Assembly (NCBI GenBank): GCA_002698995.1
Contig: PAAX01000026.1
Location: 310,001-374,000, forward strand
Source of the DNA: Ignavibacteriota bacterium
GTDB taxonomy: Bacteria; Bacteroidota; Ignavibacteria; Ignavibacteriales; Melioribacteraceae
Length of the DNA stretch: 64,000 nt
Direction of reading: 5' to 3'
Made by a program: the position numbers and the translations under genes. This document shows positions 1,295 to 64,000 of this stretch, piece by piece. Each line of letters begins with the position of its first letter. Within the stretch, counting starts at the first letter, position 1. The notes beneath the pieces were generated by a model. It did not search any database. It had not been told where the DNA came from and saw nothing but the letters and a program-made list of their open reading frames with translations.

Positions 1295-1399
1295 TGTAGA
1301 GACACCACATATTTCCTATCTACCTTTCAAAATTTTTTCTATCCGAAAAAATGTCTATTCCATTTTACGTTATGAAATAATTCTTGACATGATAGAAAC

Positions 1400-2053: not shown

Positions 2054-2178
2054 TTGTCCCTTATCATTTATATTGAAGTAACGAACCATTTTCATAACTT
2101 CAACGATTCCTCTAATTCATTCACAAAATGGTTTATGACAGCCATAGAATTTTGATTGAGAATGAATTCATAATACTA

Positions 2179-2710: not shown

Positions 2711-2718
2711 TTGTTCCT

Positions 2719-3255
2719 CTAGATATTTAAATAAATGCCAATCTTAAGTGATGGTGCAACCCATGTCTTGTAGGTTGTGGAATTTGTTAAAACAGCAAGC
2801 CCAAGGGAATAATAGAGTGTTATTAGCCTCGTATTAATTCCCTCTTTAGAAGCTGTTTATTCAAATGCGGTGGTTTTATCTCCACTGCTGTTAGAATAGC
2901 CAAGTTCCATATTTACAGAGTTTAGGCCAAGAAATCCCAAACCAGATTTAATATGTTTTGTTACACGGATACCAACTATTGGATATAAACTTGGAAAAAG
3001 TCCCGACTTATTTTCAGGAGCATACATATTTGCTGTTAATGAAGCGCTATAGTTGTCATTTATTTGATAACCCAATCTCGCGTTCAAAACATCGATGTAA
3101 CCTATTCCGAGTCCAAGAAATACTGTACGGCTGCTGCTATCCGGAATACTATAATTTGAATTTGTTTGAGATGATTTTTGATCTTCAGCAAAGTTTTTTT
3201 GAAATAATGCTACTAAAAGTAAAAGCGAGAAGATAATTAATTGTTGTTTTTTCAT
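2719..3255 (-). pseudogene. Secreted/outer-membrane family protein interrupted by an in-frame TAA
   Basis: ATG 3255 follows AGGGAACTA and opens a signal peptide (MKKQQLIIFSLLLLVALFQ). Translation stops at TAA 2859-2857 after 132 residues. The same frame continues for 45 residues (TASKEGINTRLITLYYSLG ... LKIGIYLNI) to TAG 2721-2719, right at the ribosome site of the next gene. CAA to TAA would again explain the stop. It shares its leader and first mature segment with the gene at 1400-2053 (FQKNFAED, FLGLGIGYID) but differs afterwards. It is a small envelope protein of unknown function. Readthrough or a sequence error cannot be excluded from this window alone. Confidence 0.7.
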
Positions 3256-18650: not shown

Positions 18651-19964
18651 TTACTTATCTCTAAAACTAATTGTCATTGGAATACCTGAATAACCATAGT
18701 GTTTCCTAATTTGTTTTTCAACAAATCTTCTGTAATGATCAGGTATTGTATTGGCATGATTTGCAAAAAGTAAAAATATAGGATAGAACTTTCCGACTTG
18801 AGTAATAAATTTAATCTTTACTTCTCTACCCGTTGAAGTAGCAGGTGGTGGATTTTTTTCAAATTCAGGTAATAAGGTATCATTTAATTCATTTGTTGGT
18901 ATATTCTTGCTTCTCTCTTGGGCAATTGATTTTCCTAATTCAATTAATTTGTAAATTCTCTGTTTAGTTAGGGCAGAGACAAACATAATCGGAATATAAT
19001 CCAGGCTTCCAAGTTTATCTTTTATTCTAAGTTCAAATTCGCGCGCTGTATTAGTTTCTTTTTCAATTAGGTCCCATTTGTTTACTGCTATAATAATTCC
19101 TTTTCTTCTTCTAACAGCTTCATCAATTATTTTTTGATCCTGCTTTTCTAGTCCGAGTTCTGCATCCAACATAACAACAGCAACATCGCACTCACCTATT
19201 GCTTTGAAGGTTCTAACATTGGAATAAAATTCTATATTTTCCTTAACTTTTGTTTTTCTTCTTAATCCTGCTGTATCAACTAAAATAAATTCTTCACCAT
19301 AATATTTTAGAACTGAATCAATACTATCTCTGGTTGTTCCGGGAATATTTGTTACAATACTTCTATCATAGCCTAAAAGTGCATTGGTTAAAGAAGATTT
19401 ACCAACATTCGGTCTTCCCACTAAAGCAAATTTAACTCTTGTATCTTCTTCTAATTCAGATTCGGAAAAAGTAAGCGAATCGATAACTAAATCAAGCATA
19501 TCTCCCAAATTTCTGCCGCTAATGGCAGCAACATCATAAACGTGATCAAAGGCTAAAGAATAGAATTCGGAAACATTTAATCCCATTTCTGTATTATCAA
19601 GTTTATTTACTAAAAGAATAACTTTCTTATTAGCTTTGCGAAGAATATCCGCCATTTCTATATCAACCGGAGTAACACCTACCCTTCCATCTACCATAAA
19701 TAAAATTAAATCTGCTTCTTCAACTGCAAATTGGATTTGTTCTTTAATTGCTATTTCAAAAAGATCATCACTATCAGGAACGTATCCGCCTGTATCCATA
19801 ACCTTAAATATTTTACCATTCCATTCGCATTCACCGTAAATTCTATCACGAGTAACACCACTGAAATCGTCAACAATTGCATTTTTGCTTTTTGTTAATC
19901 GATTAAAGAGAGTCGACTTTCCAACGTTCGGTCTTCCAACAATTAAAACTAGAGGTGTTTTCAT
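18651..19964 (-). CDS. der: Ribosome-associated GTPase Der (EngA)
   Basis: 437 residues with two tandem GTPase domains: GRPNVGKSTLFNRL at residue ~10 and GRPNVGKSSLTNAL at ~180, each with DTGG or DTAG and NKLD or NKWD motifs, then a C-terminal KH-like domain ending in HYGYSGIPMTISFR. It is needed for 50S subunit assembly. The length and domain order are standard. Confidence 0.98.
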   Translation of the reverse strand: MKTPLVLIVGRPNVGKSTLFNRLTKSKNAIVDDFSGVTRDRIYGECEWNGKIFKVMDTGGYVPDSDDLFEIAIKEQIQFAVEEADLILFMVDGRVGVTPVDIEMADILRKANKKVILLVNKLDNTEMGLNVSEFYSLAFDHVYDVAAISGRNLGDMLDLVIDSLTFSESELEEDTRVKFALVGRPNVGKSSLTNALLGYDRSIVTNIPGTTRDSIDSVLKYYGEEFILVDTAGLRRKTKVKENIEFYSNVRTFKAIGECDVAVVMLDAELGLEKQDQKIIDEAVRRRKGIIIAVNKWDLIEKETNTAREFELRIKDKLGSLDYIPIMFVSALTKQRIYKLIELGKSIAQERSKNIPTNELNDTLLPEFEKNPPPATSTGREVKIKFITQVGKFYPIFLLFANHANTIPDHYRRFVEKQIRKHYGYSGIPMTISFRDK

Positions 19965-20063
19965 ATTTTTATATTTCTATATTTTATTAAAATTCAGTTT
20001 GTAAAAATAGTAATTTATTAGCAAAACAACTTCTTATGATTTATTAAGTTTTTGCATTGAATA

Positions 20064-20102
20064 AATAAAAAACGAAGAATCCATATTAACCGGATTCTTC
20101 GT
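20064..20102 (-). terminator. Rho-independent terminator after the gene at 20130
   Basis: ACGAAGAATCC (20072-20082) pairs with GGATTCTTCGT (20092-20102). On the minus strand the stem is followed by TTTTTTAT. It closes the transcript of the secreted protein gene at 20130-20564 and separates it from der. Confidence 0.88.
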
Positions 20103-20129
20103 ATTAACAAATCACAATTAAAAATTCAT

Positions 20130-20564
20130 TTAGCTTTTATGCCAGCTTGCTATCTTCCATTCACTATTTTCATCAATGTTAAAGTAGATTGAATGCCAAT
20201 AGGATTTTTCATTTTCACTCTTTGTTTCTAATACCATATAAGCATTTTCTTGATTATTAGGAATAATTAACCGCATAACACCTAACCTCACATTTTTACT
20301 TTCAATAAATTTCGCTTTTTCAACCGGATCATTAAACACTTCAAAAACACTCAAGTAAGAATCACTATTGATTAAGTATGCGTCTGGTGTAAAATTAGAC
20401 TTCAAATCATTAATAGGATTATCTTGAAGAATTGATAAAACTGTGTTTAGAACTTTTTCCGGGATATTCTGATCCAAAAAATTCTCTTCAGAATTTTGAG
20501 AAGATTGTGCAGAGACTGAAATTGAAAAAAGAAATATGAGCGCAATAAGACAATTTTTGAACAT
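20130..20564 (-). CDS. Secreted protein of unknown function
   Basis: 144 residues with a signal peptide (MFKNCLIALIFLFSISVSAQ). The mature part ends in a strand-rich stretch (YMVLETKSENEKSYWHSIYF, EWKIASWHKS), the pattern seen at the end of NTF2-like or DUF4783-like small secreted proteins, but the match is not strong enough to name. It has its own terminator and lies downstream of an unrelated secreted protein. Confidence 0.75.
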   Translation of the reverse strand: MFKNCLIALIFLFSISVSAQSSQNSEENFLDQNIPEKVLNTVLSILQDNPINDLKSNFTPDAYLINSDSYLSVFEVFNDPVEKAKFIESKNVRLGVMRLIIPNNQENAYMVLETKSENEKSYWHSIYFNIDENSEWKIASWHKS

Positions 20565-20648
20565 TACTACCTCCCTTTTATGGTGAAAAATAATTCTAAC
20601 TAATAAAGAGATAGTAAACTTTTACCCATATTAACCTATTTGAGAATT

Positions 20649-21530
20649 CTAAAATCTGAGTTTAAGATTTAGCTGCGGATAATATTCAGTATAAAATCCG
20701 ATATTTTGTTTTTCTAAACTAACTTTTGTTTCTAAGGATTTATTATAACTGTTTGCACTTAAAGCCGCATCTACAGCACTGATAATGTGATTTAAAATTA
20801 CTATTGTAACGGCAGTTTTAGCAACACTATAAAAATCATTTGCTTTAGAACGCTCGCCGGAATAATACTTAAATTTATCAGTTACCTTGTAATTATCAGG
20901 ATCATATGGTTGAAACGGTTGATTTCCAAAATCATCCCAGCCGGGATTGAACTGGTGATACTTCCCAATCACTTCATAATATTGCTGAGTTCCAAACGGA
21001 TCAAGCTGATGTGAATAATAACCGCCAATCAACTGTTCCATTCTATTTAATATATTGTAATTCAATTCACCATTATTGAATAAATTATTTTGATAGTAAT
21101 TCAGATCACTTTCGGAAATTGATGGAGCTAAATTCTGAAGATTATCTAAAGACCACTGTGCGTATCTATCGGGACTCCAATGCGTATTAGCATAATTTTC
21201 AAACATAGTTGTTTGATCATTTCCCTTATTATCATAAATAACTGCAGTAGTAATTGCTGCTGCCTCAATTGCTAAAAATAATCCGGCTTTAAGATAATTT
21301 CCCGTATAAATTTCACCGGCACCTGGAATAACAGCCGACATTAATCCGGCTAAAAAGACAGATTTCTTTTTATCACTTAATTCTAAATTATTATCATTCA
21401 ATTCCACTAATTTATTAGCTTCATAACTATCTAAATTCAGAATTCCGGTTAATTCAGAATTGTTATTTTGCGAATAATAATTATTACTTAGAAAAAATAA
21501 TGATAGAACAATAAAAGAAAACAATTTCAT
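20649..21530 (-). CDS. Exported membrane-associated protein, possibly DUF5683-like
   Basis: 293 residues with a signal peptide (FIVLSLFFLSNNYYSQ). The central hydrophobic part (KKSVFLAGLMSAVIPGAGEIYTGNYLKAGLFLAIEA) resembles the P-G-x-G-x-x-Y-x-G motif of DUF5683-type proteins that often accompany envelope biogenesis genes in this group. A second hydrophobic stretch (AVTIVILNHIISAVDAAL) is near the C-terminus. It lies eight bases downstream of the gluzincin-propeller-barrel gene and is probably co-transcribed. Function unknown. Confidence 0.78.
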   Translation of the reverse strand: MKLFSFIVLSLFFLSNNYYSQNNNSELTGILNLDSYEANKLVELNDNNLELSDKKKSVFLAGLMSAVIPGAGEIYTGNYLKAGLFLAIEAAAITTAVIYDNKGNDQTTMFENYANTHWSPDRYAQWSLDNLQNLAPSISESDLNYYQNNLFNNGELNYNILNRMEQLIGGYYSHQLDPFGTQQYYEVIGKYHQFNPGWDDFGNQPFQPYDPDNYKVTDKFKYYSGERSKANDFYSVAKTAVTIVILNHIISAVDAALSANSYNKSLETKVSLEKQNIGFYTEYYPQLNLKLRF

Positions 21531-51131: not shown

Positions 51132-54100
51132 ATGAAACAAAATATCCTTTTCACATTAATTCTAATTGTAATTCTTTCGGTTGGAAACTTATTTGCCGAA
51201 AATTATTACATAGATGCAACAAACGGGAATGATGCCAATAACGGACTTTCTCCCAATGCTGCATGGAAAACACTCAATAAACTTAACAACTCTTGGTCTA
51301 TCATTAAACCTGGTGATAATATTCTCTTTAAAAGAGGCGAGGTTTGGAGACCTTCAGGAATTAGTAATGCACTTATTGCCCCGCCAAATAGCGGACTTCA
51401 CGGAACAGAAAATGCCAGAATTATTTTTGGCGCCTACGGTGAAGGAGCTAAACCAATAATAAGCAGAAAAAACTCATCTTCAGCTAAAGCTTTTTACGCA
51501 AGAAATATTTCTTACGTAACAATACAAGATATCGAATTCCGAGGAGACGTTTGGTTTTATGGCTCTTTAACCATGCCTAGCAGAATTCATCATATTCAAT
51601 TATTAAGAATCACTTTAGACGGGAACGCTCCAAATGATGCTACCGGCGGAAGCATCGATTTTTACGCTCCAGCAGTTGAAGGTGCTGCCGAGCAATGGAA
51701 TCAATCTGAAATACATAACATTGAAGTTGGTTACTCACTTATTAAAAATACTTCTCACACTGGTTTACAGATTTACGGACAAGGAAACAATTGGGTGCAT
51801 CATAATGAGTTATATAACCTTGCTCAATCAGGAATTAATTTTGCCGAAGGTGATAATAATATAATTGAGTATAATATTGTTTCCGGTGCTGTTGGACCGG
51901 GAATAAAGCATAGTGTTCATTCACATACTGCAAATAACATTGTAATTAGAGGTAATCTTTTCCTCAATACCAGAAAAGGAGGAATTGCAGTTTATAATTT
52001 AACCAACTCGAAAATTTATAATAACACCATCAGAGTATTTGGAAATGAATCTGCTATTTTCGGATGGACAACTCAAACTCCGGTTCCAATCAGTAATTTA
52101 GGAACAACTGGTTTTGATAATAACTTAATACAGAATAACATTTTTTACGGCGGACCAATTTATTTATGGAAAGCAGAAAATGTGAAAATCACTTATAAAG
52201 ATGGAACAACAATTACTTACCGGCAAAACGAACTTTGGGATGATAACATTTTTAGAAGTAACATTTATTATGATCCCGGTACTACTAATCAAATGTTCTT
52301 AAGAGATTTTGTTGAAGGAACAACCGTTTATTATAATTCTTCTGCTGCCGGTACTTATTCAAATACTATTTCAGTCAACGATTTTTATGTAAAGAACAGC
52401 ACTTTCGATTCTTTCTGGAAAACAAAAACCAATGTTATAAACGATCTTAATTCCGATCCACTATTTGTCAACGGCAATTGGAGTTCACCGGAAAATTATG
52501 GTGATTATAACTTACGCTCAAATTCTCCCGGTATTAATGCAGGAGCAGCTTTAGGTTATTATTCGGTTGATCTTGCTGGAAATTCTGTTCCAACTTCCGG
52601 AAGTATAGACATAGGAGCATTTCAATCAAATTCTGCAGATGCAGTTCAGCCTGCTTTGCTGGGTGCTCAATTAAACGATCCTAATACTCTGTTGCTTTCC
52701 TTTTCTGAAGCAGTAAATTCATTCAATGTATCAAATACTGCAAATTACTCCATCTCGGGAGGAATAACTGTCAACTCTGCTCAACTTTCCCAAAATCAAA
52801 TGCAGATTCTTCTTAAGTCCAGTTCGCATAATTACAATCAAACTTATACTGTTGTTGTTAGTAACTTGACTGATTTGGCTGGTAACGTAATCAATCAAAA
52901 TGCGGACAGTTTTAATTATTCAATTTCTGCACCTTCTGATGTTATTCCTCCTAATTTAGTTGATGCACAATTAAGTAATCCAACAACTCTGAGATTGTCT
53001 TTCTCAGAAGGATTAGAAAAAATGTCGGCTGAAAATGTAAATAATTATCAAATAACAGACGGCACTACAAATACAAATCCCAACTTATTTGAAACAGGCA
53101 AAGGAAGTTACGAAAATGATACTGAAGGTTGGGTTCCATATTCAAGCAACACTATTTCTACTTCAACTTTATTTGCAAGTGAAGGAAGCAGGTCATTAAA
53201 AATTACTTTTGTTAATAGTGCCGGAGGTGCTTATTTATATTTAGCAGAAAGAACAGATTTAGTTTCTGATTTAACGGCAGGTAAACAGTACACTGTTTCT
53301 TTTAGTGCTATGGTAGATAACGGTGAGGCAGTATTTGCATTATCAGGCGGCGGAATGTCGGCTATAGATATTCCACTTACCAATAATATGACACAATATC
53401 AAATAACATTTACAGCACAATCTGCAAATATGCACTTTTTAAGATGTGCAGGCTTAGGAAGCGGTGAATCAGTATATGTAGATAAAGTTGAAATTAGAGA
53501 GACTTCATCTGCAAGAAACAGTTTAGGAATAATCTCGGCATCAATTTCAGATGATAATAAAGAAGTAATATTAACTACAACAGAGCACAATATTAATACA
53601 ACTTATACAGTTTCCGTAAATAATGTAAGTGATGAATCGGGAAATGAAATAAATGCATCGGCAAATTCAGTAAGCTATATTTTAGAACAGGCTGCTGATA
53701 CAACTCCTCCTGCTGTAAACAATGTTTACTTAAGTGACAGTAAAACTTTGAAAGTGAAATTTTCAGAACCAATTCAAGATAATGATGCTTTAAATGTTGC
53801 TAACTATCAAATAACAAGCAATAATACAGCTGCAGTCAATTTATTCCAAGAAGGAAAAGGAACTTTTGAAAACGGAACCGAATCATGGACAGCATACGGA
53901 AGCAATCTTATTGAATCAACTTCGGAATCTTTTGTATCCGGCAGTAAATCTTTGAAAATTACTTATGTAAATAGTGCCGGTGGTGCTTATTTATATTTAT
54001 CTAATGCAAAGGATTTATCTTCTAACTTAGAAGTAGGTAAAGAATACACACTATCTTTCTGGGCAAAAGTCAATCAAGGTGATGTAAAATTTATTCTCTC

Positions 54101-55046
54101 CGGTGGAAGATTAAGACCAATTGCACTTGATCTTACGAATTCATTTCAAAAATACGAAATTAAATTTACCGCTCTTTCACAAAACAGACATTATATTAGA
54201 TTCGCTTATTTAAGCAGAGGTGAATCAGTTTATTTGGATAATATTTCGTTAACCGGAAGTGAGACAATATCAGAAAATATTCAAATACTCAGCGCAGCGT
54301 TAAATTCATTAAAGGATGAAGTTACACTTTCAACTTCAGAGCATTCATCAACTTCTTCATATTCATTAAAGATAAGTAATATTAAAGACTTAGCCGGAAA
54401 TAGTATCAGTCCGGCTGAAAGTACATTTGATTATCAATTATTCCAGAATATAAATAATGGAAAACCGTCAATTCTAAATACAGAACTTGCTGATAATTCA
54501 ACCTTAATTATTGCTTTCTCAGAAATGATTTCTAACGAATTTTTAAGTAATATAAGTAATGTATTTATTTCTGATGATATTACCGTTGACAGAATGGAAT
54601 TGTCACATGATTTATCTCAGCTGGTCATTTACACTAGTAAGCATGATATGAATCGTAATTATACAGTTGAATTATCTAATATATCCACTCTTGACAATGA
54701 ATTCTTTGAAACTGATTCATTGATCAAATCATACTCAAGTGAAACAATCACTGATCTAAATGATAACACAATTGATATTCCGAGTAAATATGAACTATAT
54801 AATAATTATCCTAATCCGTTTAACCCTAGTACAGTTATATCATTCGGATTACCTGAAAACAGTTTAGTAAATATAAAAGTGTATAATATCCTTGGTGAAG
54901 TTGTTAGTGAAATAATAAATAAAGAACTAAACGCCGGTAAACATCAAATTACTTTTGATGCATCTAACTTAAGTTCAGGAATTTACTTGTACACAATTAA
55001 AGCCGGTGAATTTGTACAGACAAAGAAAATGATTTTAACCAAGTAA
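51132..55046 (+). CDS. T9SS-exported right-handed beta-helix protein with Ig-like and CBM-like modules
   Basis: 1304 residues from ATG 51132 behind GGAGG. Signal peptide; residues ~25-500 a parallel beta-helix of polysaccharide-lyase/right-handed helix type (YYIDATNGNDANNGLSPNAA, GINFAEGDNNIIEYN, NSKIYNNTIRVFGN). Then four SbsA-like Ig modules (LLGAQLNDPNTLLLSFSEAV and repeats) alternating with two CBM-like sandwich modules (ENDTEGWVPYSSNTIS; ENGTESWTAYGSNLIE). The end is a T9SS tail (NNYPNPFNPSTVISFGLPEN). It probably binds or degrades extracellular polysaccharide; catalytic residues cannot be assigned from the sequence alone. Confidence 0.92.
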   Translation: MKQNILFTLILIVILSVGNLFAENYYIDATNGNDANNGLSPNAAWKTLNKLNNSWSIIKPGDNILFKRGEVWRPSGISNALIAPPNSGLHGTENARIIFGAYGEGAKPIISRKNSSSAKAFYARNISYVTIQDIEFRGDVWFYGSLTMPSRIHHIQLLRITLDGNAPNDATGGSIDFYAPAVEGAAEQWNQSEIHNIEVGYSLIKNTSHTGLQIYGQGNNWVHHNELYNLAQSGINFAEGDNNIIEYNIVSGAVGPGIKHSVHSHTANNIVIRGNLFLNTRKGGIAVYNLTNSKIYNNTIRVFGNESAIFGWTTQTPVPISNLGTTGFDNNLIQNNIFYGGPIYLWKAENVKITYKDGTTITYRQNELWDDNIFRSNIYYDPGTTNQMFLRDFVEGTTVYYNSSAAGTYSNTISVNDFYVKNSTFDSFWKTKTNVINDLNSDPLFVNGNWSSPENYGDYNLRSNSPGINAGAALGYYSVDLAGNSVPTSGSIDIGAFQSNSADAVQPALLGAQLNDPNTLLLSFSEAVNSFNVSNTANYSISGGITVNSAQLSQNQMQILLKSSSHNYNQTYTVVVSNLTDLAGNVINQNADSFNYSISAPSDVIPPNLVDAQLSNPTTLRLSFSEGLEKMSAENVNNYQITDGTTNTNPNLFETGKGSYENDTEGWVPYSSNTISTSTLFASEGSRSLKITFVNSAGGAYLYLAERTDLVSDLTAGKQYTVSFSAMVDNGEAVFALSGGGMSAIDIPLTNNMTQYQITFTAQSANMHFLRCAGLGSGESVYVDKVEIRETSSARNSLGIISASISDDNKEVILTTTEHNINTTYTVSVNNVSDESGNEINASANSVSYILEQAADTTPPAVNNVYLSDSKTLKVKFSEPIQDNDALNVANYQITSNNTAAVNLFQEGKGTFENGTESWTAYGSNLIESTSESFVSGSKSLKITYVNSAGGAYLYLSNAKDLSSNLEVGKEYTLSFWAKVNQGDVKFILSGGRLRPIALDLTNSFQKYEIKFTALSQNRHYIRFAYLSRGESVYLDNISLTGSETISENIQILSAALNSLKDEVTLSTSEHSSTSSYSLKISNIKDLAGNSISPAESTFDYQLFQNINNGKPSILNTELADNSTLIIAFSEMISNEFLSNISNVFISDDITVDRMELSHDLSQLVIYTSKHDMNRNYTVELSNISTLDNEFFETDSLIKSYSSETITDLNDNTIDIPSKYELYNNYPNPFNPSTVISFGLPENSLVNIKVYNILGEVVSEIINKELNAGKHQITFDASNLSSGIYLYTIKAGEFVQTKKMILTK

Positions 55047-55119: not shown

Positions 55120-56631
55120 TTAGTTTTGTATTGCGCCTATATTAGGAGTGTAATTAGGGGGGATAATATTTCCTAATAAATCATAGTAATTATTGTCAAG
55201 ATTTATTCCTTTTGATTTGGCAGGTGAATCTTCCTTTAATGAAAAATCACCATAATCTTCTGAAGAATTCCAGTAACTATCAACAAACTTCGGATCGCAA
55301 AATTTATCTCCATTTACATTTTTTTTGCTTAACCACTCTTCATTTAGATCATTCTTTTTAATATAAAATTCCTTCCAAACTAGTTCCGCTCTGTAAACTC
55401 CACCATGTATTTCATCATAATAAACCTTTGTACCTTCTTTATATTCTCTCACATAAATAATATTCTCACTGTAAGGATTAAAGAAAATATTATTATGAAA
55501 ATTATTATCACTCCAGATTAATTTAGTTTTATAGGATTCTATAATTGTGCCGTCTTTATATATCAGTTTCACATTATGCGGAGTTGAAAGCCACCCCGAT
55601 CTTCCAACAAAAATATTATTTGCAATCAAATTATTATTAAATCCGTATTTCCCTTTTCCGCAGTATGGTACTGGGTTCTGCGGATTCCATCCAAAAAAGA
55701 ATGAATAATTATTCTGAGTAACAACAGTATTATTGTAAATTTTTGAATTGGTTAAGTTTACCAATTGCAAACCAATTCCATTTGTCTGTAAAACAACGTT
55801 GCACCTAATTATTGTGCTGTCTGCACTTCCTGAATGAACACTATGTTTAATACCAGCACCATAAGTTCCCGAGATCAAATTAAATTCAATTGTATTTTTA
55901 TTTCCTTCTGCAAAATTAATTCCACTTCTGCCCGAGTTATAAACTTTGTTATGATGAATCCAGTTGGAACCTTGACCATATAATTGAATACCAAGATTTA
56001 ATTGCTGGATAGAATTTTTTACTGTACAATATCCAATCTCAATATTATTCATAACCGCTTGATTCCATTTTTCGGCACCAATCTCAACCGATTGAGCATA
56101 AAAATCAATCCCGCTTCTAACCTCATTTTTAACAGCACTCCCCGATGAAACACAATAAAGCAGTTTTACATTTTTTATAACAGAATCAAAATTGTTCAGA
56201 TAATTATGAAATTTTATTTCACCAATGAAGTGTATGTTTTTAATTATAACATAAGAAATGTTTGATGCAAATAAGGCTGTTGATGTTCTGGAGTTTTCAC
56301 AGCTTATAATTGGTTTATTTCCCGGACCGTAAGCAGAAATAACAATAGGATTAATTTCAGTTCCATGTAATCCTTTTCCAGTAATATTTATAACGGCATT
56401 TAATAGATCTAATGGCCGCCATTCTTGATTTCTTCTGAATAGAATTGTATCTCCCGGATTGAAGGACTGCCACATTGTATTTAAATGTTCAATCGATCTC
56501 CAAGCTTTCCAAGGTGCTTTACCGGAATTGTCATCAGAACCGATTTTGCTATCTATATAAAAACATGAACAGTTCAGTTCCATATTTATGAGAAAAATAG
56601 AAGCAATAAAATATTTAATGACAGTTCGCAT
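55120..56631 (-). CDS. Secreted right-handed beta-helix protein without T9SS tail
   Basis: 503 residues. Clear paralogue of the N-terminal third of the gene at 51132: FYIDSKIGSDDNSGKAPWKA, NPGDTILFRRNQEWRPLDLL, GIKHSVHSGSADSTIIRCNV, NSKIYNNTVVTQNNYSF. Signal segment at residues 5-22 with Cys (ELNCSCFY) that could make it a lipoprotein. It lacks the Ig, CBM-like and T9SS modules. It sits between its paralogue (convergent) and the psd-like gene (same strand, 12 bases upstream), so it may belong to the latter's operon. Confidence 0.88.
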   Translation of the reverse strand: MRTVIKYFIASIFLINMELNCSCFYIDSKIGSDDNSGKAPWKAWRSIEHLNTMWQSFNPGDTILFRRNQEWRPLDLLNAVINITGKGLHGTEINPIVISAYGPGNKPIISCENSRTSTALFASNISYVIIKNIHFIGEIKFHNYLNNFDSVIKNVKLLYCVSSGSAVKNEVRSGIDFYAQSVEIGAEKWNQAVMNNIEIGYCTVKNSIQQLNLGIQLYGQGSNWIHHNKVYNSGRSGINFAEGNKNTIEFNLISGTYGAGIKHSVHSGSADSTIIRCNVVLQTNGIGLQLVNLTNSKIYNNTVVTQNNYSFFFGWNPQNPVPYCGKGKYGFNNNLIANNIFVGRSGWLSTPHNVKLIYKDGTIIESYKTKLIWSDNNFHNNIFFNPYSENIIYVREYKEGTKVYYDEIHGGVYRAELVWKEFYIKKNDLNEEWLSKKNVNGDKFCDPKFVDSYWNSSEDYGDFSLKEDSPAKSKGINLDNNYYDLLGNIIPPNYTPNIGAIQN

Positions 56632-56643
56632 TGTAAAAAATTA

Positions 56644-57450
56644 TTATGTTAATTCGGCAATTCTTGTTAATCCTGCTTTCACATAATCATTTTCTTTAAC
56701 CAATATTTTTATAGAATCGGATTGAGGGAGAATTAAATCTACTTGTGAACCAAATCGTATTTTTCCAATTCTGCTTCCTGCTTCAATCCATTGATCCGGC
56801 TTAACAAATAGAACTATCATACGTACAAGTCTTGAGGCTATTTGTACAAGTCCGATATTTATATTCTTACCTTCAATAACCATAACTGTTCTTTCATTTT
56901 CCAAAATCGATTTTTGATGCTTGAGGGATTTGAAACTCCCTTTAATATGATTAATAATTTTTACCTTTCCCGAAATTGGAGATCGATTAACATGCACATC
57001 AATAAAGCTCATGCCAATACCAATATGGTAAGCAGAATTATTTAAGTATTTTGTATGAGTAAAATCCTCAATTTTATAAACACTGTTCTTTTTTTCAGAA
57101 AGGATTGAATTTCCTTCTTTTATTCTTTTTATGTAAAGTATTCTTCCATCAGCGGGTGAATAGATTACTTTCTCATTTGGACAGGTTATTCTATCGGGAT
57201 CACGATAAAATTTCCAAAGTAATAGTGAGATTGATATTACAGCCGTTAAAAATATTTGAAACAGAACAACGGCAATAATAGGCAGTTTCCAGAAAATCAA
57301 TACTGCATACATAATTACTATTATCAGCGGAATTAGGTTTATTAAAAATATTATTACAGATTTCATTGGTAATTCCCATTTATATGAAATAGGAACTACC
57401 ATGATAACTGCGATTGCAATTGTTGAAATTACTAATTCAATTAAGTTCAT
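56644..57450 (-). CDS. Phosphatidylserine-decarboxylase-like protein
   Basis: 268 residues. N-terminal two or three membrane segments (residues ~5-75), then a short-type PSD core: IYSPADGRILYIKR, GIGMSFIDVHVNRSPISGKV, and the self-processing site RFGSQVDLILP with Ser at 235, which becomes the pyruvoyl group. The classical enzyme decarboxylates phosphatidylserine to phosphatidylethanolamine. Here it closes an unusual acyl/ATP-grasp cluster and may act on a related serine or amino-acid lipid. It is preceded by a 133-nt inverted-repeat element. Confidence 0.9.
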   Translation of the reverse strand: MNLIELVISTIAIAVIMVVPISYKWELPMKSVIIFLINLIPLIIVIMYAVLIFWKLPIIAVVLFQIFLTAVISISLLLWKFYRDPDRITCPNEKVIYSPADGRILYIKRIKEGNSILSEKKNSVYKIEDFTHTKYLNNSAYHIGIGMSFIDVHVNRSPISGKVKIINHIKGSFKSLKHQKSILENERTVMVIEGKNINIGLVQIASRLVRMIVLFVKPDQWIEAGSRIGKIRFGSQVDLILPQSDSIKILVKENDYVKAGLTRIAELT

Positions 57451-57462
57451 AGTTTCTATCGT

Positions 57463-57595
57463 GGATCCGACTTCTGCTGTTCACTAAAGGAATTAATTAT
57501 CCAGCCAAATAATTAGTTGAGCTGCCTCCGGGCAAAAGCAGTTCAAATTTCCTTTTAAAGAGGGTGCTTTTTGTGTGATTTACAGAAGCGGATCC
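57463..57595. repeat. 133-nt inverted-repeat element between carrier/transferase fusion and psd-like gene
   Basis: GGATCCG-A-CTTCTG (57463-57476) pairs with CAGAAGCGGATCC (57583-57595), one-base bulge. AAAGGAA (57486-57492) pairs with TTCCTTT (57549-57555), and GAGCTGC (57519-57525) with GCAGTTC (57538-57544) through one G-U. The element fills the gap from 5 bases after the fusion's stop to 12 bases before the psd-like ATG. It could be a leader RNA controlling the psd-like gene, or a short mobile element with terminal inverted repeats. One G-U/A-C position favours plus-strand pairing slightly. Confidence 0.7.
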
Positions 57596-57600
57596 TAATT

Positions 57601-58380
57601 TTATTTTATGATATGCTCGAAATAAAGAAAATTTATAATTACTGAAATTATCAGCAGGAATAATTCTATTCTCTTTTTAAAATCATACTTTACTTCGATT
57701 TTATTTTCGTTTGAATCTTTATCTTCTTCTTGAATCAAAGTTTCTTTTGGTCCATAAAGATGATCACTTTTCAAAATTGCTACCGCAGTTACGTAATCAT
57801 TTGTATGCGAAATTGAAATCGATATTTCATCATTATAGTAAGGAACTCCATCCTTCCTATTTAATATTTCAATTTCCTTTAATGAAATATTTTGCGAACT
57901 GCTTAGTATTTTTTTTACAGCCTCCTTAGCGGCATACTTACCGGCAAAGCTTTCTTTAGGATTTTCTTTTAATAAACAGTACGATATTTCATTATTAGTA
58001 AAATTGGAAGAATAAAATTCATCAGTCCAATAATCATTACAATTTGGGAGATTATTTATCAACTCAATATCAATACCAATTGGGTTAGAGGTTTTAATTT
58101 CTTTATTTGATTCAGAAATTCCGGTAGTACTTTTAATAAATGGTAAATTCTCGGGATTTAAATTTACATCAATACACAGATGATTTTCTAATTCACCAAA
58201 AGTTTTAATCCCCCAGTAATTATTTATCTTAAGACCGATCCGTGAGAGTTCGGAGTACATTCTAGCAGTTAAAATTGATCCACCTAATTTTGATTGTCTG
58301 ATATCTGTTTTAGAATTGATCTCATTAACGGAGCAATTTAAAAACTTAGAAACAATATTTTTAGCTTGATAACTTTCCAT
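57601..58380 (-). CDS. Carrier-like domain / 4'-phosphopantetheinyl transferase fusion with membrane anchor
   Basis: 259 residues. Residues ~1-70 look like an acyl- or peptidyl-carrier domain, with LGGSIL (32-37) where carriers have LGGHSL or DSL; S35 may be the attachment Ser. Residues ~100-205 are an AcpS-type transferase: IGIDIELI (101-108), FAGKYAAKEAVKKIL (145-159), ISISISHTNDYVTAVAI. A charged linker and one hydrophobic segment (LFLLIISVIINFLYFEHII) end the protein. Carrier and activating enzyme in one membrane-anchored chain is unusual. It lies four bases after the E2-like gene with GGGG ten bases upstream. Confidence 0.84.
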   Translation of the reverse strand: MESYQAKNIVSKFLNCSVNEINSKTDIRQSKLGGSILTARMYSELSRIGLKINNYWGIKTFGELENHLCIDVNLNPENLPFIKSTTGISESNKEIKTSNPIGIDIELINNLPNCNDYWTDEFYSSNFTNNEISYCLLKENPKESFAGKYAAKEAVKKILSSSQNISLKEIEILNRKDGVPYYNDEISISISHTNDYVTAVAILKSDHLYGPKETLIQEEDKDSNENKIEVKYDFKKRIELFLLIISVIINFLYFEHIIK

Positions 58381-58384
58381 TTTG

Positions 58385-59632
58385 CTAATTCCCCAATAAG
58401 CAGTTAATACAAATGAAATCTATTTTACCATCACTATTAATAATTCTTATCAACCCCTTACCGCTGAGTTTGCTTTCCTCTCTTAAAGAAATCAAACACT
58501 TTGAACAGATTATTATTTCCTTCAAATCAGATTTGATATAAACCTCTATTCTTTCAGCCAAATCATTAAGAAATTTTTGAGAATACTTTCCGGTTACAAC
58601 TCGATGATCAAATGAGAGAATTAAATTAATTTGATTCTCAGTTTTTCCAATTCCTAATATTGCCGATTGATTTTTGTTTATTAACGGTATAAAAAATGTT
58701 GAACGCTCAGAAGTCAAATCACTAATAGTGAAAGTAGAATTTGTTAAGTCCTCTTTGGTAAGTTCATCTTCCAAATATTTTTCCGAAAGATTTATTATTT
58801 CGGTTTCTACTCTTGGATAAGTTTTTTTATCTGCATTATAAATGGTTAACGACTTTAATCCTTTCTCCAAATCAATTGCAAAACCAATATTTACGTATTG
58901 ATAGAAGTGAATCTTGTCCTCGGAAAAATAAGAATTCAAATACTTGTATTTTTTTAGAAGTCTAGATGACTCAAAAACAATAAGCGGGAGAACCGATTGC
59001 GGCAGTGCGGTTGAATTAGTATTTATCCAGTTGTTAAGATTTTCAATATGAATTGATTTGGCTACAACACTTGTAAGATTACTGCTTTGAACTCCCCTTA
59101 AATTATCTATTTCCCTTTTCTTTGTATTTGATATTTCTTCCGTAAAAATGTCCTTATTTTCTGTGTTTAATTTTTCTTGGTCGCTCTTGTCATAATCTTT
59201 AAATCCATTATTATCTAACAAATTTGATGAAATATCTTTTGATGTAACAAAGCTAAAATTCTGAAATTGTGTATAAGGTATTTTCTTTTCGTTAATTAGT
59301 TTTTCAGCTTTTTTTGAAAACCTAGTTTTAGATGAAGTATTTATTTTTGTTGGTTTTTCTACTTTCATACTACTTTGCTTTAAGTCATCTATGTTTTGAA
59401 ATAATCTAATAATAGTTTCACCTGGCTTTATTTCGTCACCCGATTTACATAGGTATTTGATATAACCAATATTCTCCGAAGCATATTCTACATCAGCTTT
59501 TGATGTTTCATATTCGATTAAAATATCATTCTGTTTTACTTCATCACCATCATTGAAGGGGCACGATAAAATTCTTACAAATTCATCATTCACATTATCT
59601 TTGGGAAGTTTAATATCAATTGTATTATTCAT
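58385..59632 (-). CDS. 2-oxoacid dehydrogenase E2-like acyltransferase with altered active site and zinc ribbon
   Basis: 415 residues. Lipoyl domain with Lys 45 (YETSKADVEY), a peripheral-subunit-binding domain at ~104-135 (RFSKKAEKLINEKKIPYTQF) and a shortened catalytic domain. The motif HRxxDG reads HRVVTG (343-348), so the usual Asp is Thr while His remains. The C-terminus adds a zinc ribbon with CSKC (376-379) and CINC (408-411). It should receive an acyl group from the E1 encoded upstream; because the active site is changed, the acceptor may not be CoA. The start overlaps the E1 gene by eight bases. Confidence 0.87.
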   Translation of the reverse strand: MNNTIDIKLPKDNVNDEFVRILSCPFNDGDEVKQNDILIEYETSKADVEYASENIGYIKYLCKSGDEIKPGETIIRLFQNIDDLKQSSMKVEKPTKINTSSKTRFSKKAEKLINEKKIPYTQFQNFSFVTSKDISSNLLDNNGFKDYDKSDQEKLNTENKDIFTEEISNTKKREIDNLRGVQSSNLTSVVAKSIHIENLNNWINTNSTALPQSVLPLIVFESSRLLKKYKYLNSYFSEDKIHFYQYVNIGFAIDLEKGLKSLTIYNADKKTYPRVETEIINLSEKYLEDELTKEDLTNSTFTISDLTSERSTFFIPLINKNQSAILGIGKTENQINLILSFDHRVVTGKYSQKFLNDLAERIEVYIKSDLKEIIICSKCLISLREESKLSGKGLIRIINSDGKIDFICINCLLGN

Positions 59633-61571
59633 GGATTAATTCACTTATCTCACTTATAACTTTCTGTTCATTTGGAATTACAAAATTCTCTAATTCAGCT
59701 GCTGAAGGAATTGGAACCATCTCCGCTGCTATTCTTTTTATATTTAATCCTACTTTAACTTTTTCAATTATTGTAGAAATTATTTCACTTCCTATTCCTC
59801 CTTCAAGTTTTCCTTCTTCAAGTGTTATTAAATTTTTTGTAATTACTGCCGATTCAATTATAGAATCTACTTCAATAGGAGAAAGCTTTGAAATAACAAA
59901 TACTTCACTGAAAAGCTCATGTTCATAAAATATTTCATCGATTACTTTTTTTATAAGTGAAACTGAACCGCCGTACGTAACAATTGTTAAATCTGGTTTA
60001 TGGTTAACCGGACTGATTTTAACCGTGGGATATTTCTCATTACTTTTTGTTATTTCATAATTTTCTAATTCTAATATCGAATTAAGTTTATTGTAATCGG
60101 TTTTATTTTCAATTACTATTACCGGCTGGTCATATTCATTATAAATAGTTTCATAAATTTCATAAGGATCAATCAAAGTATTTAATGCTATCACTTTTAC
60201 ATTATCAATTCCTATTAAGAATTTTTCCAATGACTGCGAATGAGTCGGACCATAACCTCTTCTTCCTCCCATAGGAGTTCTTATAACAACGGGACATTTA
60301 ACTTGTTTGTTATACTGATGATAAAATTTTCCGGCATGATTAATTATTTGATCCATACATAGGGTTATAAAATCACCAAACATAATTTCAACAAATGGAT
60401 GATATCCCATTAACGACAGTCCAATTCCGAAACCTGTTATCGCCGATTCACTAATAGGAGTTTCAATTACTTGAGTGGGATACAGCTTTGATAAATCTCG
60501 GGAAATCTTAAACGCACCACCATAAGGGTATTTTACATCTTCACCAATCATAATTACTTTTGAGTCTTTTTTCATGTAATCATTAAAGAATTTATAAATT
60601 CTATCTGATATTTTTTGATTAGTATATTCTATTTTGCCCCACTCAATATTATTCTGCTTATGATTTTTAGTTATATAATTTTCTATATCAAGAGTATTTA
60701 ATGATTCAAGCTTAGAAGCAATATCTTTAATTTCATTAACGGCAGTTTGATACATTTTATTATATTCATCCGGATTTGATATTTTGTATCTATTTATTAA
60801 ATCTTTTTGTTTATATAATTCAATTTCTTTAGGATCTCTGTTATCATCCCCTTTTGAATGTGCATTTAATCTATAAGTATTAATTAGTAAAAAGGCCGGT
60901 TTTCTTAAATTGCGAACAAAGGATACTGCTTCATCGGAAGCAACAATAAGATTTTCTAAATCCCAAGTATCAGTTTGGAAGGTTTCAATCGCAAAGGATT
61001 TCACTCTGTATATTATATCACCTGCTAAGTGTTCTCGCAATGGTGTAGCTTGAGCATAAAAATTATTTTCACATATGACAAGTAAAGGGAGATTATATAG
61101 TGAGATTAAATTCAAGCTTTCATATAATGTACCTGATCCGAAAGTTCCATCACCAATAAATACTGCAACAATATCATCTTTAGATTCATTTTTCTTTGCA
61201 AAGGAAATGCCTGCTGCAATTGGGACAATTCCACCCTGGATTCCATTCGATAGAAAATTTTTATTGAATAAATGCTGACTGCTTCCAATTCCGCCGCATA
61301 TTCCATTTTGTTTCCCCATTAATTCAGCTATTAATCCACTAAAATCATTCTTAAATGCTAAATAATGTCCGTGACATCTATGATTAGAGACAACAAAATC
61401 ATTATCCCTTAAGCAGTTGCAGACAGCAATTGCGTTGAACTCTTGTCCAACACAAGTATGAATAGTGCCGTTTAACTTCCCTTCTGAGAATAACTTTAAA
61501 AATAGTTCTTCGGTCTCTCTAATCTTTACAGCTTCTTGGAATAGAGAAGTAAGAATTTCACTTTGCAGCAT
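59625..61571 (-). CDS. Fused E1 alpha-beta 2-oxoacid dehydrogenase (thiamine-dependent)
   Basis: 648 residues. Alpha part ~1-320 with TPP motif GDGTFGSGTLYESL ... CENNFYAQATP and RLNAHSKGDDNRD; beta part ~330-648 with MIGEDVKYPYGGAFK, ETPISESAITGFGIGLSL and RRGYGPTHSQSLEKF. It decarboxylates a 2-oxoacid (pyruvate-, branched-chain- or acetoin-type) and passes the acyl group to E2. The two subunits are usually separate genes. No E3 gene is visible. It starts one base after the radical-SAM stop. Confidence 0.93.
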   Translation of the reverse strand: MLQSEILTSLFQEAVKIRETEELFLKLFSEGKLNGTIHTCVGQEFNAIAVCNCLRDNDFVVSNHRCHGHYLAFKNDFSGLIAELMGKQNGICGGIGSSQHLFNKNFLSNGIQGGIVPIAAGISFAKKNESKDDIVAVFIGDGTFGSGTLYESLNLISLYNLPLLVICENNFYAQATPLREHLAGDIIYRVKSFAIETFQTDTWDLENLIVASDEAVSFVRNLRKPAFLLINTYRLNAHSKGDDNRDPKEIELYKQKDLINRYKISNPDEYNKMYQTAVNEIKDIASKLESLNTLDIENYITKNHKQNNIEWGKIEYTNQKISDRIYKFFNDYMKKDSKVIMIGEDVKYPYGGAFKISRDLSKLYPTQVIETPISESAITGFGIGLSLMGYHPFVEIMFGDFITLCMDQIINHAGKFYHQYNKQVKCPVVIRTPMGGRRGYGPTHSQSLEKFLIGIDNVKVIALNTLIDPYEIYETIYNEYDQPVIVIENKTDYNKLNSILELENYEITKSNEKYPTVKISPVNHKPDLTIVTYGGSVSLIKKVIDEIFYEHELFSEVFVISKLSPIEVDSIIESAVITKNLITLEEGKLEGGIGSEIISTIIEKVKVGLNIKRIAAEMVPIPSAAELENFVIPNEQKVISEISELIHE

Positions 61572-61572
61572 G

Positions 61573-63033
61573 TTAGTTTTGTTTTAATATGTATGTAGAA
61601 TTTTTCTTTAATAGATTGTTATAACGAATTTTCTCAAAAATATTTCTGAGAAATAAATTCTTAAAGAAGAGCTTTTCAAAAAAATCAACATAGAAAAAAT
61701 GTTTAATTAAAAACCTAGAAAATGGAATCTTCTTAAACATTCTGATTGCTGTATTTTTCATGACTTCAATTTCAACTTCGTGACATAATTTCAACATCTT
61801 TCTTCTTACTTTTGCCGGAAGTTCAGGGGTTTCAAAAACCGGGTAATTTTTTTCTTCTGTAGCTTCATTTAGATAGACTTCAGGCTGAACAATAAAGAGA
61901 TTATTATCTTTAACATAATCGAACATTTCCGTACCAGGATAAGGTATTGCATTATTAAAATTTACTCTTGCAATAGGATATTTTCTTGCAAATTTGATGC
62001 AGTCATATATGTCATCAACTGTTTCTTTTGGTGTACCAACTATTATAAATGCTTTTACATCAAGTCCTAATTCACAAGCTGTTTTAACTGCGAATTCAAT
62101 CTGCTCAAAGGTTTCCCCTTTCTTTAAATCTTTTAATACTTTATTGTTACCTCCGTCAACTCCAAATCCTACTTCTCTAACACCAATATCCATCATGCGT
62201 TTAAGCATTTCTCTATCAACTCTATCAGCTCTAATTCCGTTAGAACACCTTATTAGTAAATCATTTAATCCTCTATTCTCAATTTCTTCGCATATTTCAA
62301 AAACTCTTTCCTTAAGCAAAGTAAAATTGTCATCATCAATTGCAAACTGCTTGTAGCCATGTTTTCTCCAGTATTCAATTTCATCAACAAAGTTATTTAC
62401 ACTTCTCTTTCTAAATTTTCGTCCCAATAGTTTATTTGGACAAAAAGTACAAAGTTGAACGCATCCTCTACTCGAGCTTATTGGTATTTGTTTTGAGTAA
62501 TGACTGAGATCAAATTTGTAATATCTTGGAAAGCTATAACTATCCAAATTATTTTGTAATTCCCTATAACCATTAAATACAATATTACCGTTTACTCTAT
62601 GAATAACTCCTTTGATATTACTGATTTCTTTTTCACCTTTACAAATTTCTACAAGAGTTTCTTCTCCTTCGTGAACTACACCTAAATCAATACTGCTGCA
62701 TTCATTAAGTACTTCCTCTTTTAGAATTGTAACATGATGTCCACCAACAACTATATCTATATCTGGAAAATCTTTTTTGATTGTATCAATTAATTTGTAA
62801 GTATGTTTATAACCTAGAGTAATCATGCTTACACCTATTAAATCCGGTTTTAATGATTTGATTACCTTTGATAAGTAATTATATGAGTAACCAATCCTCA
62901 TATCTACATAACCGTAATCAATTTCTTCATTAAATAAAGCTTGTGCTAAATAGCCTATTCCGGCGGGAACTCTTAATCCCCCATATCTGCTGTTTGATGG
63001 AGGACTGACAAATAATACTTTCTTGTATTTCAT
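61573..63033 (-). CDS. B12-binding radical SAM enzyme
   Basis: 486 residues. N-terminal cobalamin-binding Rossmann domain (KKVLFVSPPSNSRYGGLRVP, DIDIVVGGHHVT at ~92-102, VVHEGEE), then the radical SAM domain with C181-x3-C185-x2-C188 (RGCVQLCTFCPN), QFAIDDDNFTL and FIIVGTPKET. A C-terminal helical part follows. Such enzymes methylate or rearrange unactivated carbons. It is in one operon with E1, E2 and the carrier fusion. The substrate is unknown. Confidence 0.93.
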   Translation of the reverse strand: MKYKKVLFVSPPSNSRYGGLRVPAGIGYLAQALFNEEIDYGYVDMRIGYSYNYLSKVIKSLKPDLIGVSMITLGYKHTYKLIDTIKKDFPDIDIVVGGHHVTILKEEVLNECSSIDLGVVHEGEETLVEICKGEKEISNIKGVIHRVNGNIVFNGYRELQNNLDSYSFPRYYKFDLSHYSKQIPISSSRGCVQLCTFCPNKLLGRKFRKRSVNNFVDEIEYWRKHGYKQFAIDDDNFTLLKERVFEICEEIENRGLNDLLIRCSNGIRADRVDREMLKRMMDIGVREVGFGVDGGNNKVLKDLKKGETFEQIEFAVKTACELGLDVKAFIIVGTPKETVDDIYDCIKFARKYPIARVNFNNAIPYPGTEMFDYVKDNNLFIVQPEVYLNEATEEKNYPVFETPELPAKVRRKMLKLCHEVEIEVMKNTAIRMFKKIPFSRFLIKHFFYVDFFEKLFFKNLFLRNIFEKIRYNNLLKKNSTYILKQN

Positions 63034-63051
63034 TTAAGTTTCCTATCGTTT

Positions 63052-64000
63052 TTAAAAGCCTCTCTTTTTCCACAAGTAAGGGATAATAATAAGTTCGATG
63101 AAAAATGGGAGCGGATCCTTTAACGAAAAAACTGCAAATTCTTTTTTCCCTCTTAAGGATTTTATATAATCGGTAATTTTCAGTCTTCTATGAAAAATTT
63201 CTTTAATAACAGTAACACTGTCAGTAGTTAATCTTATCCATTTCATTTGCTTTTTAGTTTTGATATCGGGTAATTTTTTACCGGTTTCATCAAGAAATAA
63301 AAGATAAGGGAGATCGGCACCGCTGGCAATTGCTAATGTATGCCAGCCCCATACTCTCGGATTAACTTCAATTAATTTGAACTGCTCTGTTTTTTCATCA
63401 TACATAAATTCAACTTCACAAATTCCTTGATAATTTATTATCGATAAAAATTTAACTGCTAGTTCTTCTAGAATAGGTAACTCTACAACTTCCGCAAAGG
63501 TAGTTGCATGTCCAAAATCCATAGGATGCTGCCGTGATCTTCTGGCAGTTACCGATGCAATTACTTTACCATCCTTAAAATATGGACAGAAAGAATAGAG
63601 GTTTTTTGGTCCTCCATCAATTAATTCTTGAATTAGAATTTCTTCCGAATCAATTATTTTATTTACTTCATTGTAAACTGACTTTAGTTCATCTTGATTA
63701 TTAATTCTGTATGCTTTCTTCTTTACTTTAGAATAAAAATGATCTCTAATTGAAGGTTTTAATACTATCGGATAGTTAAACTCGTAGTCTAATATTTCAG
63801 TAATACTTTTTGAGAAATATGTTTTTGGAATTGGAATATTATTTATTGCACAGGTTTTATAAGTTATTTTTTTATCATAAACTTTCTTTATAGTATCGAT
63901 TGGCGGTACCGGAACTTTGATAAATCTAGAAAGAACATCTTTATTTTTCGAAATGACATAGACTATTTGATCACTGTTTGGAAATATTATCCAATCATAT
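63052..64000 (-). CDS. ATP-grasp ligase, 5'-truncated by the right window edge
   Basis: The frame is open from 63052 to the edge (~316 codons), so the Met at 63522 is internal. Visible motifs: IPIPKTYFSKSI, YPIVLKPSIRDHF, ILIQELIDGG, a metal-binding CEVEFMYDEKTEQFKLIEVN with NPRVWG. This is the carbamoyl-phosphate-synthase-like or carboxylate-amine ligase type, which joins a carboxylate to an amine or thiol through an acyl phosphate. It lies 18 bases upstream of the radical SAM gene and probably starts or continues the cluster to the right. Confidence 0.9.
   Translation of the reverse strand, partial: YDWIIFPNSDQIVYVISKNKDVLSRFIKVPVPPIDTIKKVYDKKITYKTCAINNIPIPKTYFSKSITEILDYEFNYPIVLKPSIRDHFYSKVKKKAYRINNQDELKSVYNEVNKIIDSEEILIQELIDGGPKNLYSFCPYFKDGKVIASVTARRSRQHPMDFGHATTFAEVVELPILEELAVKFLSIINYQGICEVEFMYDEKTEQFKLIEVNPRVWGWHTLAIASGADLPYLLFLDETGKKLPDIKTKKQMKWIRLTTDSVTVIKEIFHRRLKITDYIKSLRGKKEFAVFSLKDPLPFFIELIIIPYLWKKRGF

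Follow-up and report, generated by a model that had tools for sequence, protein, structure and literature searches.

Three adjacent minus-strand genes of an Ignavibacteriota genome, encoding a thiamine diphosphate (ThDP)-dependent dehydrogenase (E1), a lipoyl-bearing acyltransferase (E2) and a carrier-like domain fused to a phosphopantetheinyl transferase (PPTase), are a conserved unit. They lie in the window, a stretch of 64,000 nucleotides (assembly GCA_002698995.1, contig PAAX01000026.1, positions 310001-374000, working contig label C31) within a 4.23-Mb genome, where E1, a fused alpha/beta chain of 648 amino acids, occupies 59625..61571, E2 (415 amino acids) 58385..59632 and the carrier/PPTase protein (259 amino acids) 57601..58380. 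A first-pass annotation of the window had placed these genes in a six-gene membrane-lipid pathway with an ATP-grasp ligase, a B12-binding radical SAM enzyme and a phosphatidylserine decarboxylase-like protein (PSD). The reading proposed here is that E1, E2 and the carrier/PPTase make up a self-contained cassette for loading an acyl carrier, set in an exopolysaccharide locus and providing glycolyl for glycan acylation, and we regard this reading as about evenly poised between right and wrong.

The conservation of the cassette was examined from E1, which was sought in one genome per species across 84,980 species and found at 23 loci. At 22 of these the E1 shows 46-52% identity; 21 of the 22 lie in Bacteroidota, most of them in Chitinophagaceae, and one in a planctomycete of the Phycisphaerales. 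The remaining locus, L060, was excluded from the family at 33% identity. Gene order at the 22 loci was read by BLAST of the window proteins against the open reading frames (ORFs) of each locus, with 4.5-21.9 kb examined per locus. Of the 21 loci with contig sequence past E1, 20 have E2 as the very next gene, the sole exception being L038, where an IS110-type transposase stands in its place, and the carrier/PPTase gene directly follows E2 wherever there is sequence past E2 (19 of 19). Neither the ATP-grasp nor the PSD was matched (E 1e-3) in the examined sequence of these 22 other cassette loci, and the radical SAM enzyme gave weak matches in two (L050, E 2e-17; L053, E 0.001); several of the loci end early at contig ends, and the absences hold for the sequence examined. 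A carrier/PPTase profile served as a second entry, although the genomes that it covered overlap in part with those of the E1 scan. In the family to which the Segetibacter genome belongs it matched at 13 places in 12 of 294 genomes. Ten of these places have E2 directly upstream, and E1 was also there in all five of the places with E2 where longer sequence was taken. Two of the 13 places are short PPTase-only genes. One relative of this kind, of 107 amino acids (L097:8139-8462), stands in an exopolysaccharide-like locus near genes that by eye resemble a hexapeptide acyltransferase and an AMP-ligase. The cassette occurs seldom and in scattered genomes, and where it occurs its genes stay closely linked.

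Kinship points toward natural-product enzymes. Among 72,556 plasmid records the best match to E1 was RenH of the renieramycin cluster (42.7% identity over full length, 492 bits), whereas the other 36 non-Ren matches, among those listed, reached at most 36.1% identity and 383 bits; one other listed match had 41.0% identity, over 16% of the query only. Other high-ranking plasmid matches belong to sets of acyl carrier protein (ACP), E1 alpha, E1 beta and E2 beside genes of polyketide synthase or nonribosomal peptide synthetase (NRPS) type in Paenibacillus and Streptomyces. In an IQ-TREE phylogeny of 39 E1s, from which L058 was left out because its E1 is broken at a contig end, the window family was supported at 100/98, the family plus RenH at 98/95 and these plus three more E1s of natural-product clusters at 100/100; the Streptomyces cattleyicolor E1 (L063) is unannotated and was put in the natural-product set through its kinship. 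The 13 other E1s fell outside this clade; among them are enzymes annotated for pyruvate or branched-chain substrates and the second E1 that the genome itself encodes. The split was kept when long branches were removed (rerun without L045, L059, Pinh_fused, own_PDH and Leis_BCKDH), and at 29 positions a single residue is shared by 25 or more of the 26 clade members and by no more than two of the 13 others.

The E2 data agree with this picture. RenI was the best plasmid match (157 bits, with the next kind at 102 bits), and the E2 tree, built without L045, L059, L049 and own_PDH and with ten E2s outside the clade as comparators, joins the family to RenI at SH-aLRT 99, in agreement with the E1 tree, though several E2 branches are long. 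A canonical pyruvate dehydrogenase (PDH) or acetoin dehydrogenase was rejected on the strength of the two trees. E1 carries the Pfam domains E1_dh, Transket_pyr and Transketolase_C, and E2 (Pfam Biotin_lipoyl and 2-oxoacid_dh) is made up of a lipoyl domain with an ETSK motif (59399..59632), a linker that by eye resembles a degenerate binding domain, an acyltransferase core (58541..59143) and a C-terminal zinc ribbon (58388..58516). Structure comparison gave the core the fold of the acyltransferase core of dehydrogenase-complex E2s. The near copies L045 and L059 were omitted from the alignments, as were L049 and L055, which leaves 17 of the 20 carrier rows and 17 of the 21 E2 rows; in all 17 aligned E2s Lys45, His343 and the ribbon cysteines (Cys376/379/408/411, CxxC...CxxC) are invariant. 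By eye the ribbon is also kept in L045, L049 and L059 and is cut off in L055. It is present neither in RenI nor in two other natural-product E2s that were aligned.

The acyltransferase core also departs from its canonical motif. Where E2s of CoA-type 2-oxo acid dehydrogenases have the Asp of HxxxDG, the window E2 has Thr (HRVVTG), as does RenI (HRVLTG), 20 relatives have Glu (HRx(T/S)EG) and three other natural-product E2s have Asn. An E2 search over 296 genomes of the phylum matched 183 of them, the best match apart from the window's own gene having E 4e-21, and HRxxDG was kept in 29 of 29 comparator E2 loci fetched from the phylum; the motif search found none in the genome's own second E2, which was therefore left uncounted. 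The loss of the Asp suggests an altered CoA-side site. Two E1/E2 sets outside the clade (L077:2919-6077 and L060:9878-13971) have an E2 that reads HRAVTG or HRVLNG. Sets of acetate-CoA ligase, E1, E2 and ACP on Streptomyces and Tropicibacter plasmids (L071, L072) have an E2 that retains the Asp.

The third protein combines a PPTase with what appears to be its own substrate. The PPTase domain (57760..58095) matches Pfam ACPS in 17 of 17 members and has the AcpS fold, with a VIA-align Z of 15.6 to AcpS and to the PPTase of fungal fatty acid synthase over 101-111 aligned residues. The carrier-like domain (58156..58380) has predicted helices at residues 2-14, 35-47 and 61-69, and an invariant Ser35 opens the second long helix. 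Acyl carriers are laid out in this way, with the serine at a helix start, and the domain is a putative carrier by its invariant serine, the matching predicted helices and the fusion to a PPTase. A predicted hydrophobic helix (residues 231-258; 57607..57690) closes the protein and is probably a membrane anchor, as judged from the prediction; by eye most relatives have a hydrophobic C-terminus and L050 is missing it.

The cassette sits among polysaccharide genes. The first-pass annotation had advised reading the sequence to the right, and 32 kb past the right window edge were read, with ORFs named mostly by reading and five of them run against Pfam. This region encodes an undecaprenyl-sugar transferase, aminotransferases, Wza/Wzc-like proteins, a flippase, a polymerase/ligase-like protein and glycosyltransferases, and the six genes are the 3' end of a large exopolysaccharide locus that extends right of the window and not an isolated cluster. 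Directly upstream of the ATP-grasp gene, and separated by gaps of 1 and 29 bases, lie genes for a 706-amino-acid glycosyltransferase/polysaccharide-deacetylase fusion and a 151-amino-acid hexapeptide (LbH) acyltransferase. Counting the window's own, 21 loci show any gene upstream of E1, and in 20 of them one of the three nearest is an LbH acyltransferase gene on the same strand. A gene of the Acyl_transf_3 cluster (cluster-14) sits between the LbH gene and E1 in six loci and one of a methyltransferase cluster in two, each cluster being named from one member run against Pfam. The neighbors annotated in L057 are of GDP-mannose dehydratase type and epimerase type, with glycosyltransferase and CpsB/CapC-like genes, and the same clusters recur in other Chitinophagaceae.

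Carrier-loading E1/E2 pairs are known already, and several have been described. QncN/L/M direct how a glycolyl unit is made and attached, and SclQ1-4 are proposed to make this unit from a ketose phosphate (PMC6335953), while the dnacin paper gives the NapB/NapD homologues likewise as glycolyl enzymes (PMC7570522). The sets QncN/QncL/QncM of quinocarcin, NapB/NapD/NapC of naphthyridinomycin and SclQ1-4 of scleric acid resemble the cassette in that each brings together a ThDP E1, a lipoyl-acyltransferase E2 and a carrier, and the scl cluster also has a PPTase (PMC6335953). However, they feed an NRPS line whereas the cassette sits among polysaccharide genes with a one-chain E1, a zinc-ribbon E2 and a carrier and PPTase in one protein with a hydrophobic tail. 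In pepteridine biosynthesis the E2 of plu2796 (an E2-T-C fusion) is proposed to prime a carrier and not CoA, with E3 proposed to come from the host, which is like the cassette; the carrier is fused to E2, the proposed source is an alpha-keto acid and the acceptor is a pteridine, which is not (PMC5384830).

The closest named relatives, RenH and RenI, are encoded on a Ca. Endohaliclona plasmid as a fused E1 followed at once by E2, and RenI and the window E2 share an alike TDLS/SDLT stretch in addition to the motif. They differ from the cassette in the absence of a zinc ribbon and in lying in a natural-product pathway rather than a polysaccharide locus, and no PPTase or carrier was found in RenC, RenD and RenJ, the three smaller Ren neighbors tested. 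Pyruvate and branched-chain complexes have the same E1/E2 domain order and E2 core fold, but the cassette differs from them in the replaced HxxxDG Asp, the dedicated carrier-like protein, its separate clade and the absence of an E3, for which two queries gave no match in 25 sequences (the window, the 32 kb beyond it and the cassette loci). What is new is the polysaccharide setting and the architecture, that is, the E2 zinc ribbon, the Thr or Glu at the HxxxDG Asp and the probably membrane-anchored carrier-like domain fused to its own PPTase. No report of a polysaccharide use of such E1/E2-carrier sets was found in the literature searched.

From the parts, their order, their conservation and their kinship, which are read from sequence, we infer a mechanism of five steps, a substrate and an acceptor. 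The fused PPTase would add phosphopantetheine to Ser35 of its own carrier domain (step 1). E1, with ThDP, would remove glycolyl, as a dihydroxyethyl unit of two carbons, from a ketose phosphate and hand it to the lipoyl-lysine (Lys45) of E2 (step 2), and E2, its CoA-side active site altered, would pass the acyl group to the carrier thiol rather than to CoA (step 3). The membrane-tethered glycolyl carrier would then feed an acyltransferase, most likely the upstream LbH enzyme, which would acylate a sugar of the repeat unit (step 4). The lipoyl group would be reoxidized by the general E3 of the cell (step 5), which is invoked because no E3 was found in the locus. Loading of the carrier by E1 and E2, as the first-pass annotation had also proposed, is very likely in view of the conserved gene order and the shared clade with natural-product E1s and E2s. 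A sugar is rather likely to be the acceptor. Glycolyl is the first guess for the acyl group because of the kinship of E1 and E2 with natural-product sets and the published glycolyl function, and by this analogy it is somewhat more likely than not.

Several observations weigh against this proposal. The glycolyl kinship runs through RenH and RenI, for which the record gives names only, and these stand in for the Qnc, Nap and Scl enzymes, which were likened by description and not by sequence. Deletion of sclQ1-4 left residual product, which its authors explain by glycolic acid from elsewhere (PMC6335953). As for the carrier, no Pfam carrier family was found in the 17 members of the fusion, hhalign against natural-product ACPs gave a probability of 3%, and the best PDB sequence was an ACP at a non-significant E of 0.44; the carrier part was hardly probed by Foldseek and VIA-align because the match lists were filled by the PPTase part. 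One full-length carrier/PPTase occurs without E1 or E2, in an exopolysaccharide-like locus (L095:8955-9713), and together with the PPTase-only gene of L097 it suggests that such carriers may also be loaded by other means.

The E2 motif is likewise an imperfect guide. Among ten non-clade E2s with a readable motif, eight keep the Asp, whereas that of Legionella adelaidensis has Thr and that of a gammaproteobacterium Asn. PDB titles name Asn614 in an E2, which we take to be that of Azotobacter, and the Asp is retained in two plasmid sets that have an ACP beside them. These cases weaken the loss of the Asp as a strict mark of carrier loading. Some caution also applies to the surroundings: the LbH genes near E1 fall by eye into three unlike kinds, LbH genes are common in exopolysaccharide loci, and most cassette loci come from one family and are not independent because of shared descent. 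In the planctomycete locus (L050) the annotated genes include sugar-type ones, with no glycosyltransferase among them.

An alternative that we consider doubtful, though worth keeping in view, is that the same cassette runs on other fuel, with E1 decarboxylating a 2-oxo acid (pyruvate, 2-oxobutyrate, a branched-chain acid or hydroxypyruvate) so that acetyl or another acyl group reaches the glycan. Alpha-keto acids are the proposed substrates of the pepteridine sets, and the paper on these also cites a branched-chain acyl-ACP enzyme (PMC5384830). Additionally, the best curated matches to E1 were pyruvate dehydrogenase models, though below their cut-offs, and by eye the loop His and the equivalents of E59-beta and H128-beta of pyruvate E1 (PMC2663715) are kept. 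However, E1 and E2 group with RenH/RenI and the natural-product sets, apart from 13 other E1s and ten other E2s that include pyruvate- and branched-chain-annotated enzymes. That kinship would also suit a cassette that makes a small diffusible natural product and stands beside polysaccharide genes by chance, since its nearest relatives outside the family lie in natural-product clusters. This is quite improbable, because polysaccharide genes recur around the cassette and NRPS genes do not: a tblastn search of 25 sequences (the window, the 32 kb beyond it and the 22 loci) with three NRPS-type queries, the L064 condensation-domain protein and RenE and RenF, both taken here to be NRPSs, found no NRPS module beside the cassette apart from one adenylation-like ligase match in L038.

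The six-gene membrane-lipid pathway, in which an acyl group would be loaded, changed by the radical SAM enzyme and coupled by the ATP-grasp to an amine, with PSD-type decarboxylation of a serine-type head group, has much right in its parts. All six ORFs are present in one minus-strand run with the named domains recovered (Pfam and curated models), the altered E2 and its zinc ribbon are both real, and a hydrophobic helix is predicted at the C-terminus of the carrier protein. Of the membrane-anchored carrier/transferase, the AcpS-type PPTase and the predicted helix stand, while the carrier part falls below Pfam detection and depends on Ser35 and the helices. The genes had been described as mostly overlapping or within 20 bases, which fits the first four gaps in transcription order (18, 1, -8, an overlap, and 4 bases) and not the PSD gene, which follows the carrier gene by 150 bases. 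As a pathway, however, it is scarcely credible. The annotation had itself named poor co-conservation of the six genes as grounds for rejecting it, and poor co-conservation is what the cassette loci revealed. In two relatives the ATP-grasp and PSD genes stand together where the cassette is absent, the genes around the run are of polysaccharide type, and the genome encodes another PSD. A single six-gene unit was rejected because of this poor co-conservation and the separate occurrence of ATP-grasp and PSD. The head-group step is also chemically awkward. PSD-type pyruvoyl enzymes form an imine with a free amine of the substrate, so serine joined through its amine is an implausible substrate; a phosphoserine-type diester is a plausible one.

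The three genes outside the conserved cassette have associations of their own. The ATP-grasp ligase (389 amino acids, Pfam) occupies 63052..64000 in the window and starts outside it at the window-equivalent position 64221. In a search of 345 genomes 22 matched it at 1e-30, and five ATP-grasps have E below 1e-70; three of these five (the window's and those of two relatives) have a PSD nearby, but none was found near those of G066 (16.0 kb) and G123 (6.2 kb fetched). The PSD (56644..57450) is a long form with a Pfam match at E 1.1e-41, and its GS pyruvoyl site is invariant in three long forms. PSD genes were found in all 38 genomes searched, and three of these, the genome itself, whose second PSD has 219 amino acids, and its order-level relatives G152 and G180, have two, one of them a long form. 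The long PSD adjoins an ATP-grasp relative in G180 and is one gene away from it in G152, with no E1 or E2 there, and both loci look exopolysaccharide-like (by eye, with Pfam on L125). The pairing of ATP-grasp and PSD is loose, and the ATP-grasp family is wider than the pairing. A block of a bi-domain oxidoreductase of about 708 amino acids, a protein of about 388 amino acids (without a Pfam match in the L125 copy), an ATP-grasp and a DUF354 protein recurs in L124, L125 and L152, with a long PSD in two of the three. A second, RimK-like ATP-grasp lies in the same locus as the cassette (L003:13916-14980; C31:379916-380980) and has remote relatives in L124, L125 and L152. The radical SAM enzyme (61573..63033, Pfam), part of the same gene run, was matched at E 1e-40 in 13 of 296 genomes (own included), the best other match having 36% identity over part of the length, and the only relative of nearly full length (G259, L126) has different genes around it. 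The planctomycete locus L050 has two B12-binding radical SAM genes (1005-3086 and 19280-20782), the second of which is the best match to the window enzyme among the 22 loci, at 23% identity.

The run as a whole is transcribed from the LbH and glycosyltransferase/deacetylase region through ATP-grasp, radical SAM, E1, E2, carrier/PPTase and PSD to a beta-helix protein (55120..56631, minus strand), which follows the PSD by 12 bases and is probably its last gene. This protein may act on polysaccharide. It stands tail to tail with a paralogous, larger beta-helix protein on the plus strand (51132-55046; 44% identity over 503 amino acids), and one of the two has carbohydrate-binding domains and a type IX-type secretion tail. 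A fuller use of the run would be an assembly line that keeps the glycolyl carrier and has the radical SAM enzyme rebuild the acyl chain, for example by C-methylating glycolyl to lactyl on the carrier or on the sugar. The hexapeptide enzyme would then transfer the acyl group to an amino sugar freed by the glycosyltransferase/deacetylase fusion, and the ATP-grasp and PSD-like enzymes would add and then decarboxylate a further substituent. This is improbable. If true, it would be, to our knowledge, the first case of an acyl-carrier line like those of natural products being devoted to a polysaccharide.

Bacterial polysaccharides are generally considered to receive their acyl groups from acetyl-CoA or fatty acyl-ACP, and the glycolyl two-carbon unit is used by some antitumor antibiotics. 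The cassette of E1, E2 and carrier/PPTase is found in scattered Bacteroidota and a planctomycete, and the named enzymes closest to it come from antibiotic-type clusters. If it does load glycolyl, it would provide a direct route from central sugar phosphates to the decoration of glycans by way of a carrier of its own, and it predicts a glycolyl or similar ester or amide on the polysaccharide. The zinc-ribbon E2 and the carrier-PPTase fusion with its hydrophobic tail serve as markers for such loci.

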